A program made the translations under genes and the position numbers. This document shows positions 14,139 through 63,023 of a stretch of 64,000 bases of DNA, one piece after another. Numbering within the stretch: the stretch's first letter is position 1; each line of letters starts with the position of its first letter. A model generated the notes under the pieces. The model did no database searches. It had not been told where the DNA came from and worked only from the letters and a program-made list of their open reading frames with translations. Location of the stretch: contig NZ_CP053590.1 of NCBI RefSeq assembly GCF_013365535.1, positions 5,074,501 through 5,138,500 of the forward strand, given 5' to 3'. Source of the DNA: Aquimarina sp. TRL1 (GTDB lineage: Bacteria > Bacteroidota > Bacteroidia > Flavobacteriales > Flavobacteriaceae).

Positions 14139-15404
14139 TTAAATCAAAAACTGAAATAAATCAGGTTTATCATTTAGATAATCGCCAAAAAAATTCTTTT
14201 CTTTCATTCTGGTAATCAAAGGAGCTAAATCTTTTGTATCTTTTAATTCAATTCCTACCACAGCAGGACCATTCTCTCTACTTGATTTTTTAGAATATTC
14301 AAAATGAGTGATATCATCATTAGGACCTAATACTTCGCCCACAAATTGCTTCAAAGCTCCTGCACGTTGTGGAAACCGTACAATAAAATAATGTTTTAGC
14401 CCAGAGTACAACAAGGCCCTTTCTTTGATCTCTGCTGTACGCGTAATATCATTGTTACTACCACTGACAATACACACTACATTTTTTCCTTTGATTTCTT
14501 CTTTATAGAAATCCAGCGCTGCTAAAGTTAGTGCTCCTGCTGGTTCTACAACAATAGCATCTCTATTATACAAGTCCAAAATAGTCTGACATACCAGTCC
14601 TTCCGGAACAGTTATCATTTCAGACAAATTAGAGTTACAAATCTCGAAATTGTGTTCACCAACCTTCTGGACCGCAGCACCATCTATAAACTTATCTATA
14701 TCGGCAATCTCTGTATTGATTCCTTTTTCTATAGAAGTGGACATCGAAGGAGCTCCTGCTGGTTCTACTCCAATAATTTTTGTTTTGGGAGACAAGGCTT
14801 TCATAGCTCCACATAAACCAGATGCCAATCCTCCTCCTCCTACAGCAACAAAAATATAATCTATAGGAGCATCTGCCTGCTTAAAAATCTCCAAACCGAT
14901 GGTTCCCTGTCCTTCTATGGTTTTGGGATCATCAAAAGGATGTACAAATGTTTTTCCCTGAGATTCGCAAATCTCTTTGGCTGCCCTGGATGAATCATCA
15001 AACGTATCTCCTTCTAATACTATTTTTACATGAGCTCCTCCAAACATCTGAGTTTGCTCTACTTTTTGCTTTGGCGTCACAGAAGGCATATAAATCGTCC
15101 CTTCTATTTGCAAATGGTTGCATGCAAAGGCAACTCCCTGGGCATGATTCCCCGCACTGGCACAAACCACTCCCCGTTGTAATTGTTCCGGAGTCAAAGA
15201 GCTTATCTTATTAAAAGCTCCTCTAATTTTGTAGGATCGAACCCGCTGAAGATCTTCTCTTTTTAATAAGACATTCGCTTCATACCTCCGAGAATACCTA
15301 ATACTATTCATTAAAGGAGTCACCATAGCCACTTCTTTTATAGTTGTAGCTGCTTTTTGTATATCCTCTAAATCCGGAAAATATGTGGTCTTCGTTGTAT
15401 TCAT
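14139..15404 (-). CDS. ilvA: Threonine deaminase (threonine ammonia-lyase, biosynthetic)
   Basis: 421 residues. It converts threonine to 2-oxobutanoate, the first committed isoleucine step. The PLP lysine is in RSYKIRGAFNK; VCASAGNHAQGVAFAC and the PLP-phosphate loop VAVGGGGLASGL are intact. A single C-terminal ACT-like regulatory domain (from about residue 338, HYFIVRFPQRAGALKQF) makes it the shorter biosynthetic form, so isoleucine feedback is likely. It is the last gene of the ilv operon, 105 nt after ilvC. Confidence 0.94.
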   Translation of the reverse strand: MNTTKTTYFPDLEDIQKAATTIKEVAMVTPLMNSIRYSRRYEANVLLKREDLQRVRSYKIRGAFNKISSLTPEQLQRGVVCASAGNHAQGVAFACNHLQIEGTIYMPSVTPKQKVEQTQMFGGAHVKIVLEGDTFDDSSRAAKEICESQGKTFVHPFDDPKTIEGQGTIGLEIFKQADAPIDYIFVAVGGGGLASGLCGAMKALSPKTKIIGVEPAGAPSMSTSIEKGINTEIADIDKFIDGAAVQKVGEHNFEICNSNLSEMITVPEGLVCQTILDLYNRDAIVVEPAGALTLAALDFYKEEIKGKNVVCIVSGSNNDITRTAEIKERALLYSGLKHYFIVRFPQRAGALKQFVGEVLGPNDDITHFEYSKKSSRENGPAVVGIELKDTKDLAPLITRMKEKNFFGDYLNDKPDLFQFLI

Positions 15405-15509: not shown

Positions 15510-16985
15510 TTATACAATTGGTTTCATTGCTGTCATAGAAGCTCTAAGCTTATTTCCTACAACTTCAATTGGGTGATTTCTTAAAATCTCATTAATAGAA
15601 ATTAGTTTTGCATTATCTACTCCGTTATCAACTCCTTCATCATATGCTTTCCCTATAACATTTACATCAATATCTTTCATAAAATCAGATAATAATGGCT
15701 TACATGCATGGTCGAATAAATAACAACCATACTCAGCGGTATCGGAGATTACTCTATTCATTTCGAATAGTTTTTTTCGTGCAATTGTATTCGCAATTAA
15801 AGGAGTTTCATGTAATGATTCATAATACGCTGACTCTTCAATGATTCCTGATTCAGTCATCGATTCAAAGGCTAATTCTACTCCTGCTCTTACATACGCA
15901 ACCATAAGTACTCCGTGATCATAAAACTCCTGTTCAGAAATTACTACATCTCCTGCCGGTGTTTTCTCAAAAGCAGTTTCTCCTGTTTCTGCTCTCCATC
16001 CTAATAAATTCTTATCGTCATTTGCCCAATCTTCCATCATAGTACTGGAAAAATGCCCTGACATAATATCGTCCATATGTTTTCTAAACAACGGTCTCAT
16101 AATTCCTTTTAATTCTTCTGATAATTCGAATGCCTTCACTTTGGACGGGTTAGACAAACGATCCATCATATGAGTAATACCCCCGTATTTTAATCCTTCG
16201 GTGATAACTTCCCATCCATACTGAATTAATTTTGAGGCATACCCTTTATCAATTCCTTTTTCGACCATTTTATCAAAACAAAGAATAGATCCTGTCTGTA
16301 ATAATCCGCATAAGATTGTCTGCTCTCCCATTAGATCTGACTTTACTTCTGCTACGAATGAAGATTCTAAAACTCCTGCCTTATGTCCTCCGGTAGCTAC
16401 TGCATACGCTTTGGCCTGCGCGAGACCTTCTCCTTTTGGATCATTTTCCGGGTGTACCGCAATAAGTGTAGGCACTCCGAATCCTCTTTTATATTCTTCT
16501 CGTACTTCCGATCCAGGACATTTTGGCGCAACCATAATAACCGTCAGATCTTCTCGTACTTTCATTCCTTCTTCTACGATATTAAATCCATGAGAATAGG
16601 ATAACGTAGCACCTTTTTTCATCAGCGGCATTACTGTACTTACCACTTGTGTATGCTGTTTATCTGGAGTTAAATTAATCACCATATCAGCTGTTGGAAT
16701 CAACTCCTCATAAGTTCCTGTTGTAAAGCTGTTTTCAGAAGCATTTTTATACGATTGTCTTTGTTCTTTAATTGCTGCTTCTCTCAAAGCATAGGATATA
16801 TCCAGCCCTGAATCTCTCATATTCAATCCCTGATTCAGCCCTTGTGCTCCACATCCTACTATAACAATCTTTTTTCCTTTTAATGCAGCTACTCCATCCG
16901 AAAACTCGGATAATTCCATAAATCTGCATTTTCCTAATTGAGTTAACTGATCTCTTAATGATAGTGTATTAAAATAATTTGCCAT
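15510..16985 (-). CDS. ilvC: Ketol-acid reductoisomerase, class II (long form)
   Basis: 491 residues, the long class II form with a duplicated C-terminal knotted domain, as in Escherichia coli rather than the roughly 330-residue class I. It isomerises and reduces acetolactate and acetohydroxybutyrate using NADPH and Mg2+. The Rossmann motif [19 protein letters not shown] and the Mg-binding regions [12 protein letters not shown] and the later Glu-rich helices are visible. The nucleotide loop after DISYALRE carries Arg and Lys residues, in keeping with NADPH. It lies between ilvN and ilvA. Confidence 0.96.
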
Positions 16986-17053: not shown

Positions 17054-17590
17054 TTAATTCACTTCTTCTATAGTGAATGTTTCCAGAATCTTAGAGATAT
17101 GCATTTTCTCTTTAGTTACTGCAATTCTTCCTGACCTGACAAACTGCATTAGTCCATAGGGCTCCAGCTTATCGTACAATGCTTCTACCTCATAGCGTCT
17201 CCCTGTTTTTTCTAAAACAAAGAACTCCGGAGTTACTGTTACAATCTGCGCATTGCTCTCTTTAATCACATTTTGAATCTGACGTTCCTCGAATAACAAT
17301 TTTGAAGAGATTTTAAACAAAGCTGTTTCTTGATAGATGGTTTCATCATCTCTGTGATAAAACGCTTTGATAACTTCAATTTGTTTTTCTATTTGTGTTA
17401 TAATTTTCCGAACCTGTTCTTCCGTAACAGAAACTACAATCGTAAATCGAAAAACATCTTTTATTTCAGAAACGGAAGCTGTGAAACTATCCAAATTAAT
17501 TCTCCTTTTCAGGAAGATAGCCGAAATCCGGTTCAACAACCCTATATTGTTTTCGGTATATACCGAAATTGTATAATTTTCTTTTTCCAT
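17054..17590 (-). CDS. ilvN: Acetolactate synthase regulatory (small) subunit
   Basis: 178 residues. The N-terminal ACT domain (about residues 5-75) carries YTENNIGLLNRISAIFLKRRINLDSF, the valine-binding surface of small subunits. A second C-terminal ACT-like domain follows (ETALFKISSK...). It is 2 nt downstream of ilvB on the same strand, so the two form the holoenzyme and are translationally coupled. Confidence 0.94.
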   Translation of the reverse strand: MEKENYTISVYTENNIGLLNRISAIFLKRRINLDSFTASVSEIKDVFRFTIVVSVTEEQVRKIITQIEKQIEVIKAFYHRDDETIYQETALFKISSKLLFEERQIQNVIKESNAQIVTVTPEFFVLEKTGRRYEVEALYDKLEPYGLMQFVRSGRIAVTKEKMHISKILETFTIEEVN

Positions 17591-17592
17591 AA

Positions 17593-19326
17593 TTAACTTA
17601 GTCTTACATCTGATACTGAGGCTCCTGTTGGAATCATCGGGAATACATTATTTTCTTTTTCTACACATACTTCTAAGAAATAAGCACCTTCTGTGGTCAT
17701 CATTTCTTTGATTGCCTCTTTTAGTTCTTCTCGCTTGGTTACCCTTTTTGCTGGGATATGATATCCTCTAGCAATCGTAATAAAATCCGGATTGGTCATT
17801 TCTGTAGAGGCATATCTCTTCTCAAAAAATAATTGTTGCCACTGTCTAACCATTCCTAAAAACTCATTGTTCAGTACAACGATCTTAACGGCTGTATTGT
17901 TCTGAAAAATCGTTCCTAATTCCTGAATTGTCATTTGGTACCCTCCATCTCCTATAATAGCGATTACATCTCGTTCGGGGGCTCCCATTTTTGCTCCAAT
18001 AGCTGCCGGCAAAGCAAATCCCATAGTTCCTAAACCACCTGAGGTAACATTGCTTTTTGATTTGGAAAATGCTGCATAACGACATGCGATCATTTGATGT
18101 TGACCTACATCAGATACAATAACCGCATCTCCTTTGGTCTCTTCATTGATTCCTCTGAGAACTTCTCCCATAGACAGGCCTTCTTTCTCAGGATACAATT
18201 CATTTTTAATGACTTTATCGTACTCTATCTCCATCAGATCATTAAACTGCTGTAACCAAGCCTGGTGATCATTTTTGTTTATCAGAGGTAATATTTTTGC
18301 CAATGTATGCTTCACATTTCCCATAACTGCCACATCACTCATCACATTCTTATCTACTTCTGCAGGATCTATTTCAAAATGTATTACTTTGGCTTGTTTC
18401 GCATAAGTATCCAGATTTCCTGTTACCCGGTCATCGAATCGCATTCCTACAGCAATCAAAAGATCACATTCATTGGTTAATTTATTAGGTGCGTAGTTTC
18501 CGTGCATTCCTACCATTCCTACATTAAGTGGATGAGAAGTTGGCAGGGCTGATAATCCTAATATAGTCCATGCCGCCGGAATTCCCGCTTTTTCTATCAG
18601 AGCTGTAAACTCTTCTTCTGCTTCTCCCAAAATCACTCCTTGACCAAAAACAATTAATGGTTTTTTCGCGGCATTGATTAAGTCTGCAGCATCTTCCAGG
18701 CTTTTCGGCTCCGTTGGAGGAGTTGCTTTATAGCTACGAATACCTTTACAGGGCTCGTATGAAAAATCAAACTCTTCAAACTGTGCATCTTTTGTGATAT
18801 CGATAAGTACCGGTCCGGGTCTCCCTGATCTGGCAATATAAAATGCTTTAGCAAATACTTCGGGAATATCGGCAGCTTTTGTTACCTGATGGTTCCACTT
18901 TGTCACCGGTGTAGAAATCCCCACAATATCGGTCTCCTGAAAGGCATCGGATCCCAGTAAGTGAGAAGCGACCTGTCCTGTAATACACACCATCGGAGTT
19001 GAATCAATCTGTGCATCTGCTATTCCCGTGACCAGATTTGTAGCTCCTGGTCCAGAAGTAGCCATTGCGACGCCAACTTTTCCACTGGTTCTGGCATATC
19101 CTTGTGCAGCATGTGTTGCGCCCTGTTCATGTCTTGTCAGAATATGTGTTAGTTGATCTTCATATTTAAACAATTCATCGTATACAGGCATAATTGCTCC
19201 TCCGGGATACCCATAAATTAAATCTACTCCTTCGGCTAACAGGCATCTAATGACTGCTTCTGCCCCTGTCATTCGTTCCGTCTTCATTGTAGTTTCTTTC
19301 GTTACTGTTTGCGTTGCTGTTTCCAT
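17593..19326 (-). CDS. ilvB: Acetolactate synthase catalytic (large) subunit
   Basis: 577 residues from the ATG at 19326. An in-frame TTG 39 nt upstream and an ATG 39 nt downstream are alternatives; the conserved part starts at RMTGAEAVIRCLLAEGVD. It is a thiamine-diphosphate enzyme making acetolactate and acetohydroxybutyrate. Visible motifs are the activating Glu in YPGGAIMPVYDEL, GPGATNLVTGIADA, the FAD-binding middle domain and the ThDP motif GDGGYQMTIQELGTI...NN. It is second in the operon after ilvD, with ilvN directly downstream. Confidence 0.95.
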   Translation of the reverse strand: METATQTVTKETTMKTERMTGAEAVIRCLLAEGVDLIYGYPGGAIMPVYDELFKYEDQLTHILTRHEQGATHAAQGYARTSGKVGVAMATSGPGATNLVTGIADAQIDSTPMVCITGQVASHLLGSDAFQETDIVGISTPVTKWNHQVTKAADIPEVFAKAFYIARSGRPGPVLIDITKDAQFEEFDFSYEPCKGIRSYKATPPTEPKSLEDAADLINAAKKPLIVFGQGVILGEAEEEFTALIEKAGIPAAWTILGLSALPTSHPLNVGMVGMHGNYAPNKLTNECDLLIAVGMRFDDRVTGNLDTYAKQAKVIHFEIDPAEVDKNVMSDVAVMGNVKHTLAKILPLINKNDHQAWLQQFNDLMEIEYDKVIKNELYPEKEGLSMGEVLRGINEETKGDAVIVSDVGQHQMIACRYAAFSKSKSNVTSGGLGTMGFALPAAIGAKMGAPERDVIAIIGDGGYQMTIQELGTIFQNNTAVKIVVLNNEFLGMVRQWQQLFFEKRYASTEMTNPDFITIARGYHIPAKRVTKREELKEAIKEMMTTEGAYFLEVCVEKENNVFPMIPTGASVSDVRLS

Positions 19327-19401
19327 ACGCTCTGTCCTTTTTGAGTCGTTAGTATTCGATTTCAAAATTTGTCAATTGTAATAATTTGATTTGTGTATTT
19401 T

Positions 19402-21078
19402 TTAGAATTCATCTGTTACACATCCTTGGGATGCTGATGATACCGTATGCGCATATTTATACAGTACTCCTCTTTTAAATTTTAAAGGAGGTTGTACCCA
19501 TGCTGCTTTTCTTTTTGCAAGTTCTTCACTGTCTATATCAACTGTTATCGAGTTTTTTTCTGCATCAATTGTGATCACATCACCATCTTCAACCAAACCT
19601 ATTAATCCTCCTTCTTGTGCTTCCGGGGTAATATGCCCTACGACAAAACCATGCGTTCCTCCTGAGAATCGTCCATCTGTAATCAGAGCGACATCTTTTC
19701 CTAAGCCTGCTCCCATAATCGCTGCTGTAGGTTTTAGCATTTCTGGCATTCCAGGTCCTCCTTTAGGGCCTTCATATCGTATAACAACTACATCTCCTTT
19801 TTGCACTTTTCCATCTCGTATTCCATCATTAGCATCGTATTCGCTATCAAAAACTTTGGCGTTTCCTTTAAAAAGGAGCCCTTCTTTTCCTGTTATCTTT
19901 GCCACACATCCGTCTTCTGCCAGATTTCCATACATAATTCTCAGATGCCCAGTTTCCTTTATAGGGGACTCCAATGGTTTTATAACATGTTGCCCTTCTA
20001 ATAAATCGGGAACATCCAATAGGTTTTCTGCCAATGTTTTTCCTGTTACAGTCAGACAATCTCCGTGTAGTAATCCCTTCTTTAATAAATATTTCAACAC
20101 TGCAGGAATTCCTCCTACCCTATGCACATCTTCCATCAAATACTTCCCGCTAGGTTTCAGGTCTGCCAAAAATGGAGTTTCGTCACTTATACGCTGAAAA
20201 TCTTCTAAAGTAAAAGACACATCTGCTGCTCTTGCTATAGCTAGAAAATGCAATACTGCATTTGTAGATCCTCCCATTATCGTTACCAATCGAATTGCAT
20301 TTTCCAATGATTTTTTGGTAACAATATCTTTGGGTTTAATATCTTTTTCTAATAAAACTCGCATTGCTTGCCCAGCCATGACGCTTTCATTCTCTTTATT
20401 TTCACTTATTGCCGGATTCGAGGAGTTATAAGGAAGTGACATCCCTAATGCTTCAATAGCCGATGCCATGGTATTTGCTGTATACATTCCTCCACAAGCT
20501 CCTGCCCCCGGGCATGCTTTTTCGATAACACTCTCATATGTCTGTTGCGTCATAGTACCAGCTACTTTTTCTCCCCAGGCTTCAAAAGCAGACACAACAT
20601 CCAGCTTTTTTCCTTCATGACATCCAGAGGCAATAGTCCCTCCATATACCAAAATAGCCGGACGGTTTAATCGCAGCATCGCCATAAGTGCTCCAGGCAT
20701 ATTCTTATCACACCCAACAACTGTCACCATTCCGTCATAGGACATCGCCTGTACTACTGTCTCCATAGAATCAGCAATTACATCTCTCGATGGTAATGAG
20801 AAACGCATTCCTGGTGTCCCCATAGAAATACCATCACTAACGCCAATAGTATTAAAGATCAAACCGACTAAATCTTCATTTTCGGTTCCCTTTTTTACAA
20901 GTTTTGCCAAATCATTGAGATGCATATTACATGGGTTTCCTTCATACCCTGTACTAGCAATCCCTACAAATGGTTTTTTTAAATCTTCTCTTGTTAACCC
21001 AATTGCATGCAGCATCGCCTGTGCTGCCGGTTGAGTGTCATCCTGAGTAACTTGCCTACTAAATTTGTTGATATCCAT
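19402..21078 (-). CDS. ilvD: Dihydroxy-acid dehydratase
   Basis: 558 residues. It dehydrates dihydroxyisovalerate and dihydroxymethylvalerate to the 2-oxoacids. The iron-sulfur cysteines lie in [21 protein letters not shown] and [16 protein letters not shown]. The catalytic-region signature [19 protein letters not shown] is near the C-terminus. It is the first enzyme gene after the double attenuator region, with a 240-nt leader between the second terminator and its ATG. Confidence 0.96.
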
Positions 21079-21322
21079 TTTTTTGAATATTATTTATATT
21101 ATCTTTATTTTTTTAACAGTTTTTTTGATAATAACAAAAAGCATCTTTTATAACGCAGTATAAAATTATTTTGTTACTGCTAAACAATTATCATTTCCTC
21201 AATTTCCTTACAACATCCAACCTAAGCCTATTTATTCACAAACTCCTAAAAAACAACTAATTACACTTGTTTTTTTTACAATCACTACACAGATAATTAT
21301 TATTTTTTGTTCCTTATACACC
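21079..21322 (-). promoter_or_regulatory. ilvD 5' leader between attenuator 2 and the start codon
   Basis: About 244 nt of AT-rich sequence without a credible gene. It would be transcribed as the distal part of the ilv leader RNA when both attenuators are read through. I see no third leader peptide, no further terminator hairpin and no recognised riboswitch here; only tiny ORFs of 4-18 codons occur. Confidence 0.4.
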
Positions 21323-21360
21323 AAAAAAAATCCCTTCAACATAATTGAAGGGATTTTTTT
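21323..21360 (-). terminator. ilv attenuator 2: terminator hairpin
   Basis: Perfect stem ATCCCTTCAA / TTGAAGGGAT with a 5-nt loop; on the minus strand it is followed by T8. The strand arm first transcribed (RNA CCCUUCA, 21346-21352) can instead pair with RNA UGAAGGG (21378-21384), which lies directly after the stop codon of leader peptide 2. That alternative pairing would be the antiterminator. Confidence 0.9.
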
Positions 21361-21384
21361 GTTCGCTACACAATATGCCCTTCA

Positions 21385-21447
21385 TCACGGTGAAATAATC
21401 ACCACGACGATAATGACAATACGAATGATAGCTTTTACAGTTTGCAT
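21385..21447 (-). CDS. ilv leader peptide 2 (Ile/Val-rich, 20 aa)
   Basis: A 20-codon ORF, MQTVKAIIRIVIIVVVIISP, with 7 Ile and 5 Val and no Leu. It stands between attenuator terminator 1 and terminator 2. Its stop codon touches a 7-nt segment able to pair with the 5' arm of terminator 2. A ribosome stalled at the Ile/Val run for lack of charged tRNA would leave that segment free and prevent termination; a ribosome at the stop would cover it and allow termination. The absence of Leu fits an operon that holds ilv but no leu genes. It resembles leader peptide 1 (shared MxTVxxII...VIISP), indicating duplication. Confidence 0.85.
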   Translation of the reverse strand: MQTVKAIIRIVIIVVVIISP

Positions 21448-21470
21448 TTCTATTTTATTTTTTATGCTCA

Positions 21471-21505
21471 AAAAAAAATCCCTTTACAAATTGTAAAGGG
21501 ATTTT
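21471..21505 (-). terminator. ilv attenuator 1: terminator hairpin
   Basis: Perfect stem ATCCCTTTACA / TGTAAAGGGAT with a 3-nt loop; on the minus strand it is followed by at least eight T. The first-transcribed arm (RNA UCCCUUUAC, 21493-21501) can alternatively pair with RNA GUAAAGGGA (21529-21537), which includes the stop codon of leader peptide 1, giving a mutually exclusive antiterminator. Confidence 0.9.
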
Positions 21506-21533
21506 AAGTTTATATTGTTTATACAACGTCCCT

Positions 21534-21596
21534 TTACTGGGGTGAAATAATCACCTCAATAATAATGACGTTAATAATTGTATTTACTGTTTTCAT
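21534..21596 (-). CDS. ilv leader peptide 1 (Ile/Val-rich, 20 aa)
   Basis: A 20-codon ORF, MKTVNTIINVIIIEVIISPQ, with 7 Ile and 3 Val and no Leu. It is the first gene of the ilv transcript, ending inside a segment (GTAAAGGGA) complementary to the 5' arm of terminator 1. The predicted start of transcription is only about 5 nt upstream of its ATG, so it may be translated as a near-leaderless message. Together with leader peptide 2 it forms two serial copies of the same attenuator design. Confidence 0.87.
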   Translation of the reverse strand: MKTVNTIINVIIIEVIISPQ

Positions 21597-21606
21597 AATC
21601 TGTTGC

Positions 21607-21636
21607 CAAATATACTAATTCTTTATTAAATTCAAA
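21607..21636 (-). promoter_or_regulatory. Promoter of the ilv operon (Bacteroidota type)
   Basis: On the minus strand TTTG (21636-21633), an 18-nt spacer and TATATTTG (21614-21607) match the Bacteroidota -33 TTTG and -7 TAnnTTTG elements exactly. Transcription should begin close to 21601, just before leader peptide 1. The region also separates the ilv operon from the response regulator gene at 21725. Confidence 0.8.
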
Positions 21637-21724
21637 GTATAAATAAAAAAAGGCATTATTTTTTTCATTTCCATCTCCTTTCTATGAGGTTTTATAAAAA
21701 ACAACTATGGTTCAGTGAGTCGGA

Positions 21725-22381
21725 TTAAAATTTAAACAAATTGTTTTTCATACAATAGATGACCAGCCCAACTCTGGTTTTAACTTCCAGCTTTTTAAAA
21801 ACCATCTCTCTGTAGTTTTCTACTGTTTTAGGACTAAGACTCATCTCATCAGCAATCTGTTTATAGGTCAATTCTGAACAAGCATGCTTGAGAAAAGTCC
21901 ATTCTCTCTTAGTCAGATGGTCTTCTAAGTTTGTATGCTGATCTAGTTGATCTGAGTGCTTCAGAGCTTTTTCTATTTTGGAAGAATAATAAAATCCTTG
22001 CTCAATAACCATCTTCATCGCAAATTCAAAGTTTTCGGGATGAATATCTTTTAGGAGATATCCTCTGGCTCCTGATCTCAGCATTTTTATAATGGTTTCT
22101 TCATCATCCTCCATAGTAAGTGCCAATACTTTTTGCTGTGGTTGATTCTCTTTTAACCATTCCATGGTCTGCACCCCGTCCATCACTGGCATTTTTACAT
22201 CCAATAGTACCAAATCAGGTTTTCTTCGCTTGTGTAAATAATACTGCGTTAATTCTTTTCCGTTCTTTAGAATTGCTAACACCTGGTACTCTTCCAATTT
22301 AGAGATCAAGCTCTCTAATGATTGTGCAAAGAGCAGATGGTCGTCAACTATTACAATTGTTTTTTTCTTTTTAGTAATCAT
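21725..22381 (-). CDS. Response regulator, NarL/LuxR family
   Basis: 218 residues. The N-terminal receiver domain (about 8-125) has the acidic pair Asp13-Asp14, phosphoacceptor Asp61 in LVLLDVKMPVMDG, and the conserved Lys in YLLKDIHPE. The C-terminal LuxR-type helix-turn-helix (about 150-215) reads LTYKQIADEMSLSPKTVENY. It is a DNA-binding regulator partnered with the histidine kinase whose gene overlaps its start by 11 nt. Operator-like palindromes occur upstream of this operon and elsewhere in the window. Confidence 0.92.
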   Translation of the reverse strand: MITKKKKTIVIVDDHLLFAQSLESLISKLEEYQVLAILKNGKELTQYYLHKRRKPDLVLLDVKMPVMDGVQTMEWLKENQPQQKVLALTMEDDEETIIKMLRSGARGYLLKDIHPENFEFAMKMVIEQGFYYSSKIEKALKHSDQLDQHTNLEDHLTKREWTFLKHACSELTYKQIADEMSLSPKTVENYREMVFKKLEVKTRVGLVIYCMKNNLFKF

Positions 22382-62954: not shown

Positions 62955-63023
62955 CCCTGAAAACAGGGTATGCATTTTCACTTATAACGGTATAGTACAC
63001 ACCTTAAAAAAGTAGAATCTTTG
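62955..63023 (+). promoter_or_regulatory. Promoter and upstream element of MORN gene 2
   Basis: CCCTGAAAACAGGGTATGCA followed by TTTTCAC (62955-62981). From CCTG at 62956 to TTTG at 63020 is 64 nt, exactly as in front of MORN gene 1. The -7-like element is AATCTTTG; a -33 TTTG is missing. The perfect palindrome CCCTG-aaaa-CAGGG suits a dimeric regulator. Confidence 0.55.

Follow-up and report, generated by a model that had tools for sequence, protein, structure and literature searches.

The window analysed here, a 64-kb stretch of DNA (64,000 nucleotides) from Aquimarina sp. TRL1, carries on its minus strand the genes ilvD, ilvB, ilvN, ilvC and ilvA. They serve the synthesis of isoleucine and valine and are taken together as ilvDBNCA, an operon whose co-transcription is putative. 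The host genome comprises 5.4 Mb, and its nearest named relatives by IlvD belong to Aquimarina. The minus strand 5' of ilvD was read directly, and two serial leader/hairpin modules were found there (Table 1), with the length and the Ile, Val and Leu content of both leader ORFs exactly as the original prediction had given them. Ile and Val codons, the control codons, account for 10 of the 20 codons in leader 1 and for 12 of the 20 in leader 2, and an in-frame TTG upstream of leader 2 is an alternative start that would add 8 codons. A response-regulator gene on the same strand ends about 130 nt 5' of leader 1.

Table 1. Features of the ilv locus, with positions in the 64-kb window
Feature	Position	Strand	Details
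ilvC	15510-16985	-	Putative operon member
ilvA	14139-15404	-	Putative operon member
ilvN	17054-17590	-	Putative operon member
ilvB	17593-19365	-	Putative operon member after ilvD
ilvD	19402-21078	-	First structural gene; dihydroxy-acid dehydratase; TIGR00110, 756.5 bits, above cut-off
Terminator hairpin 2 (segments 3:4)	~21326-21358	-	T run to 21323; -18.3 kcal/mol
Protector (1:2) hairpin, module 2	21365-21432	-	-24.7 kcal/mol
Segment S2, core of segment 2	21378-21384	-	TGAAGGG; directly 3' of the leader 2 TGA stop
Leader ORF 2	21385-21447	-	MQTVKAIIRIVIIVVVIISP and stop; 20 codons: 7 Ile, 5 Val, 0 Leu
Terminator hairpin 1 (segments 3:4)	~21475-21505	-	T run to ~21470; -16.4 kcal/mol
Protector (1:2) hairpin, module 1	21519-21577	-	Inner GGTGA-loop-TCACC stem; -21.1 kcal/mol
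Segment S1, core of segment 2	21529-21537	-	GTAAAGGGA; spans the leader 1 TAA stop
Leader ORF 1	21534-21596	-	MKTVNTIINVIIIEVIISPQ and stop; 20 codons: 7 Ile, 3 Val, 0 Leu
Candidate Bacteroidota promoter	21607-21636	-	TTTG 21636-21633, 18-nt spacer, TATATTTG 21614-21607

Sequence and folding place an intrinsic terminator between leader ORF and ilvD, and a mutually exclusive antiterminator pairing was found near the leader stop: S1 could pair over 9 bp with the 5' arm of terminator 1 (21501-21493), and S2 over 7 bp with that of terminator 2 (21352-21346). An antiterminator segment overlapping the stop codon itself had been predicted; this is so in module 1 and is not so in module 2, where S2 begins after the stop. 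The element in front of leader 1 (TTTG, 18 nt, TATATTTG), which we take to be a promoter on the strength of the Bacteroidota consensus, ends 10 nt 5' of the leader 1 ATG, and the 5' UTR of leader 1 would thus consist of only a few nucleotides.

To survey relatives, we collected 242 regions 5' of ilvD, each at most 900 nt long and 217 of them distinct, from 80 named genomes, 50 genomes of the genus group (host included), 89 further family genomes (out of 109 that gave a match), 22 of the loci of a class search (two of them from the same family) and the window. The detector called a module where an ORF of 10-36 codons rich in Ile, Val and Leu was followed, 12-60 nt beyond its stop, by a hairpin with a T tail whose 5' arm pairs with a segment close to the stop. 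At least one module was reported in 113 of the 217 distinct regions, with two in 46 and none in the other 104; the same detector reported modules in 3 of 217 reverse complements and in 0 of 651 dinucleotide shuffles. Two loci (L245 and L167) are likely chance matches and were dropped, leaving 111 loci and 157 modules for later counts. By source, and with regions not made distinct, two, one and no modules were reported in 16, 27 and 37 of the named genomes (n=80), in 37, 4 and 9 of the genus group (n=50) and in 6, 39 and 44 of the family set (n=89), and the class set (n=22) gave 0, 1 (the likely chance match) and 21. These counts err on the low side, as L050 and L055 were scored as having none, and L022, L053 and L079 as having one, and further modules are present there. 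When the detector was run over both strands of the window without the amino-acid filter, at a pairing score of at least 14, it gave 5 matches, two of which are the modules described here. Another of these unfiltered matches, near 63006 on the minus strand, is a hydrophobic 24-codon ORF with a pairing hairpin and is probably due to chance.

A covariance model was built from an alignment of 29 first modules (A1), including that of the window and containing no second module, and was run with Infernal under stricter filters on 52 genomes of the genus group, 50 of which have ilvD. In the host genome it gave two matches at E <=0.01, both at this locus (E 1.6e-15 and 2.5e-11). Among the matches listed, an adjacent pair was found at ilvD in 38 of the 50 ilvD-bearing genomes, a single module in 3 (G038, G040 and G041) and none in 9. 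Altogether 11 of the 52 genomes had no match at ilvD, and two of these 11 have no ilvD match (55%-complete assembly). The doubling is common in the genus group, recurs in other Flavobacteriaceae, and is not private to Aquimarina sp. TRL1.

To avoid circularity, the pairing between S and the terminator arm was evaluated on 173 ORF-hairpin pairs that had been chosen without any pairing criterion. A stretch of 14 nt scored against the arm of its own hairpin reached a mean of 7-8 within the leader and of 15.5 at the stop codon (n=173). Over the 173 modules, own arms scored 15.90 and permuted arms 12.25, and none of 2000 permutations was as high, in a kind of test that shared descent inflates. Within classes of modules sharing an arm word, permutations as high as the observed value numbered 0 (80 modules), 0 (52), 14 (33) and 9 (8), each out of 2000. 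That the own arm wins even within classes is hard to explain without pairing, despite shared descent. The original prediction had staked itself on conserved leaders and compensatory changes in the paired arms of relatives, and both were found, the former in the regions and genus-group pairs counted above and the latter in these arm scores.

The position of S relative to the codons is also constrained. The last Ile or Val codon lies 11-16 nt before S in 129 of the 157 modules, and the start of S falls within -5 to +8 of the stop in 148. Seven leaders (L025, L035, L050, L054, L055, L059 and L070) have a later stop, with S at -9 to -13, and their Ile/Val-to-S distance is still 13-17 nt; in two of them the pairing of S is weak (score 10). 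A ribosome covers about 12-13 nt beyond its A site. With the last Ile codon in the A site, a ribosome would just leave S free, and at the stop codon it would cover S. The segments can also pair across modules: in Aquimarina-type tandems S1 scored on average 18.0 with its own arm and 15.0 with arm 2, and S2 scored 17.0 with its own arm and 16.1 with arm 1, since both Aquimarina-type words are alike (CCCTT). In the eight tandems of other types the words are well separated, with own scores of 15.0 and 19.8 against cross scores of 10.4 and 9.8.

The leader codons and the stop region also fold into a hairpin that takes up much of S. Folding from the leader start to 24 nt past the stop gave, for module 1 of the window, a stability that 0 of 200 shuffles reached (-21.1 kcal/mol, z -3.66), and, for module 2, one reached by 3 of 200 (-24.7 kcal/mol, z -2.65). 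Over the 157 modules, the two of the window included, the mean z was -2.4 when the control was random synonymous recoding that followed leader codon usage, and -2.9 when codon order was randomised; z lay below -2 in 95 modules and above +1 in 2. At the centre of the hairpin is a GTGA-loop-TCAC stem, in which some relatives show compensating changes (pairs 44-60, 47-57 and 48-56). RNAalifold applied to A1 gave no more than the inner part of 1:2; with the second-module alignment (A2) it did not yield the inner 1:2 stem, and as A2 is poorly registered that result was set aside. S was paired upstream at 72% of positions, compared with 60% after recoding; in second modules of tandems the figure was 64%, hardly above its recoded control (62%). 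The evidence for this protector hairpin is thus stronger for its stability than for its hiding of S. A compact two-segment design had been proposed for the locus; the folding of the 157 modules rejects it. Because the protector hairpin takes up S, the layout is the classical one of four segments (1:2, 2:3 and 3:4), present in duplicate.

The promoter predicted before leader 1 found support in the relatives. An exact TAnnTTTG box occurs 4-22 nt before the first leader at 34 of 111 loci (the gaps found were 4-14 nt), compared with 57 of 2220 random positions, and TAnnTT[TC]G lies within 16 nt of the first leader in 23 of the 38 Aquimarina-type tandems. A second promoter before leader 2 was considered and rejected, as the exact box precedes only 1 of 46 second leaders. 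Since the box is found before leader 1 and rarely before leader 2, one promoter probably serves both terminators.

Known RNA families do not account for these modules. No Rfam family reached its gathering score in the 64-kb window; the best leader family near the modules was Thr_leader, at 29.1 bits against a cut-off of 55, and the 27 Rfam matches up to E 1 in 21060-21740 included no T-box. With only weak matches under cut-off, a T-box, a riboswitch or another known RNA family was rejected as a candidate. The classical leader-peptide attenuators are those of trp, thr, his and ilv in E. coli, and T-boxes sense tRNA directly. The modules share with the classical attenuators a leader ORF of control codons, the 1:2, 2:3 and 3:4 pairings and amino acids that match the product of the operon; unlike them, they come as two full units, arranged in series and alike in codon content, and they place the core of segment 2 directly at the stop codon of the leader. 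Vitreschak et al. 2004 reportedly made a comparative study of attenuators that included Bacteroidetes.

Several published systems are doubled in some other way. As described in PMC3641672, the tandem attenuators of Salmonella mgtCBR are a 'singular example' that responds additively to different signals (ATP and proline), a single attenuator being normal for nutrient biosynthesis genes. Like the present locus, mgtCBR as that account gives it has one operon preceded by a leader with a pair of short leader ORFs; unlike mgtCBR, each ORF here comes with a terminator hairpin of its own, and both ORFs are rich in Ile and Val. The same source contrasts the mgtCBR leader with the metE leader, which has two putative intrinsic terminator sites, and cites tandem riboswitches at metE of B. 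clausii. Tandem T-boxes are described in PMC12452182. In both, the sensing units are likewise serial, but a metabolite or tRNA is sensed directly, with no translated leader. Naville and Gautheret report a rimP-leader with a second, tandem terminator in several Gammaproteobacteria (PMC2965389). It resembles the present locus in its two serial terminators, the upstream one having a possible antiterminator, and neither a leader peptide nor amino-acid codons figure in the description given there; the main text of that paper contains neither 'bacteroid' nor 'ilv' as a string. At ermB, two leader peptides also precede one gene, where according to PMC8274638 they mediate translational attenuation induced by erythromycin; unlike here, that account involves no termination controlled by amino-acid supply. 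Closer to the host, leader-peptide attenuation has been proposed 5' of amino-acid operons in Flavobacterium psychrophilum, as it is here, with structured 5' elements at pheA and hisG (PMC9723704); in the main text of that paper 'ilv' occurs 0 times and the two uses of 'tandem' concern other genes. Corynebacterium ilvBNC is also controlled by leader-peptide attenuation, and the accounts in PMC11857589 and PMC10272879 describe one uORF and three hairpins, not a doubled unit. Among the titles and abstract openings that our searches of open PMC listed, we found no description of tandem leader-peptide attenuators for the same signal.

Together, the product-matched control codons and the pairing of S with the arm argue for the core of the original prediction, namely two serial ribosome-mediated attenuators with alternative antiterminator and terminator. 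We consider it very probable that these are two complete four-segment attenuators in series, leading from one promoter to ilvDBNCA and multiplying repression. A ribosome stalled for Ile-tRNA or Val-tRNA would mask or open segment 1 and leave S free; S, once free, would base-pair with the terminator's 5' arm, letting RNA polymerase read on. A ribosome at the stop codon would cover S, so that the terminator could form and transcription would end; without translation, hairpin 1:2 would hide S and the terminator would also form. As RNA polymerase must pass both terminators, the readthrough fractions should multiply, so that repression would be tighter and the same signal would draw a steeper response. 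Anatomy, conservation, covariation, codon content, geometry and a promoter-like box before the first leader, and not before the second, are what the analysis shows; that the modules switch, sense and multiply, possibly with an AND-type response, is inferred from these. Several observations weigh against this reading: no module was detected in 104 of the 217 regions or in 9 of the 50 ilvD-bearing genus-group genomes, the S segments of Aquimarina-type tandems also pair with the arm of the other module, the uptake of S in second modules is close to its recoded control, and RNAalifold on A1 gave just the inner part of 1:2.

Other explanations must be weighed against this one. It seems rather unlikely that the two modules sense different things (Ile against Val, or degrees of starvation) and integrate two signals as in mgtCBR. 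Such a division could draw on the S/arm words, which differ, on the window, where S1 lies over the stop and S2 after it, and on the means of 46 tandems, in which the second leader holds slightly more Val (2.8 vs 2.3) and Ile (7.1 vs 6.1) than the first. However, both leaders are dominated by Ile, with ATT occupying position -12 in 37 of the 38 first leaders of the Aquimarina type and in 33 of the 38 second ones, and their composition differs so little that one shared signal is favoured; differing specificity is thus unsupported by composition. That only one attenuator works, the other being a decaying or recently duplicated copy, we regard as very unlikely. The genomes that hold a single module would suit it, as would the weaker second modules, in which z for 1:2 is -1.97 against -3.07 in the first modules (46 tandems), and in which 25 of 2000 arm permutations were as high against 1 of 2000 in the first, both among modules pre-selected for pairing. 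Nevertheless, of the 41 genus-group genomes matched at ilvD, 38 retain both modules, and the terminators of the 38 Aquimarina-type tandems are equally strong (means of -15.0 and -15.3 kcal/mol).

It is hardly credible that the hairpins serve only to shield ilvD from transcription arriving from upstream and that the ORFs are coincidental. The same-strand response-regulator gene that ends shortly before leader 1 speaks for it, but a promoter box stands before leader 1, the Ile/Val-rich ORFs keep a fixed spacing with S matched to the arm, and amino-acid-matched leaders also occur 5' of his genes and of a pheA-like gene. An additional action in trans of the leader peptides or of the two short terminated RNAs, comparable to that claimed for peTrpL of Sinorhizobium (PMC7298713), appears highly improbable; two short RNAs are indeed expected, but the first half of the peptide, compared by eye, varies widely among relatives.

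The codon choice of the leaders is unusual. In the leaders of the 38 Aquimarina-type tandems, GTC makes up 45% of Val codons (10% in the window genes) and GTA 11% (50%), and ATT makes up 72% of Ile codons (46%); Val GTC and GTG and Ile ATT are preferred over the common codons of the window genes. This may reflect selective tRNA sensing, or may be partly forced by the pairing of hairpin 1:2.

Outside the Aquimarina type, each arm carries one of two words, resembling CCTTCC in class 1 and CTGTATC in class 2, and single modules of either class are common. In all eight tandems of other types (L021, L057, L140, L163, L169, L174, L186 and L202), a class 2 second module follows a first module of another word, and L053 and L079 are alike by eye. 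On an IlvD tree (FastTree, 106 rows), 11 changes are required to explain the tandem label, of which 7 or more fall on well-supported branches; such counts cannot separate gain from loss. L079 and L053 were set by hand to 'tandem' and L022 to two modules, because the detector had reported one module there, and the tree leaves out 60 upstream-only family loci (L165-L224) and further genus-group loci. This distribution suggests an ancestral ordered pair with losses, and repeated gain would be compatible with it as well. On balance, we lean towards an old, selectively maintained two-stage attenuator: an ordered pair for one signal in Flavobacteriaceae, kept or partly lost by lineage, that would provide multiplicative and possibly ultrasensitive control of Ile and Val synthesis from RNA alone. 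The type of sensor is classical and its conserved doubling is unusual. The usual picture of leader-peptide attenuation has a single unit for each operon, and most ilvD-bearing genomes of the genus group keep two; the relatives with one unit are natural controls for whether attenuation in series multiplies repression and sharpens the response.

Leaders for other amino acids follow a similar plan. The his genes of the host are preceded by one single module with the leader MTALFLHHHHFTSSLE (L256, ~232-357), hisD having been named by family search and the ORF adjoining the leader taken as hisG by eye. Eight of the weak covariance-model matches listed in relatives were inspected. Four of them (L265, L267, L269 and L270) carry His leaders before a hisG-like ORF, named by eye, and L271, on the reverse strand of relative G008, carries a Phe/Tyr leader, MNNVFTWNRFYFFFFYYIEKVGIAM, with a matching segment and terminator 5' of an ORF that is pheA-like by eye; L266, L268 and L272 have hairpins without a convincing leader and were rejected. 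In the His and Phe/Tyr modules the segment that pairs is located within the ORF, at -7, -12 and -14 relative to the stop, and not at the stop. No leader attenuator was detected 5' of leuA in the separate leuACDB operon of the host (L254, 12889-17355), whose genes were named leuA-leuC-leuD-leuB by inspection of translations, leuA also by a PF00682 match. Among the loci examined, doubling was found at ilv only, which raises the question of why it is kept there while the his leaders examined are single. The ilv modules also point to attenuators unmatched by Rfam in a little-studied phylum.

The stretch of about 250 nt between terminator 2 and ilvD (21079-21325, minus strand) folds no better than shuffles (z -0.41). 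Its length is mostly 244-257 nt in 30 loci, and three motifs within it, TAGTGATTGTAAA, TTGGATGTTGTAAGG and AACAAAATAATTTTATACTG, are kept in 28 aligned relatives.
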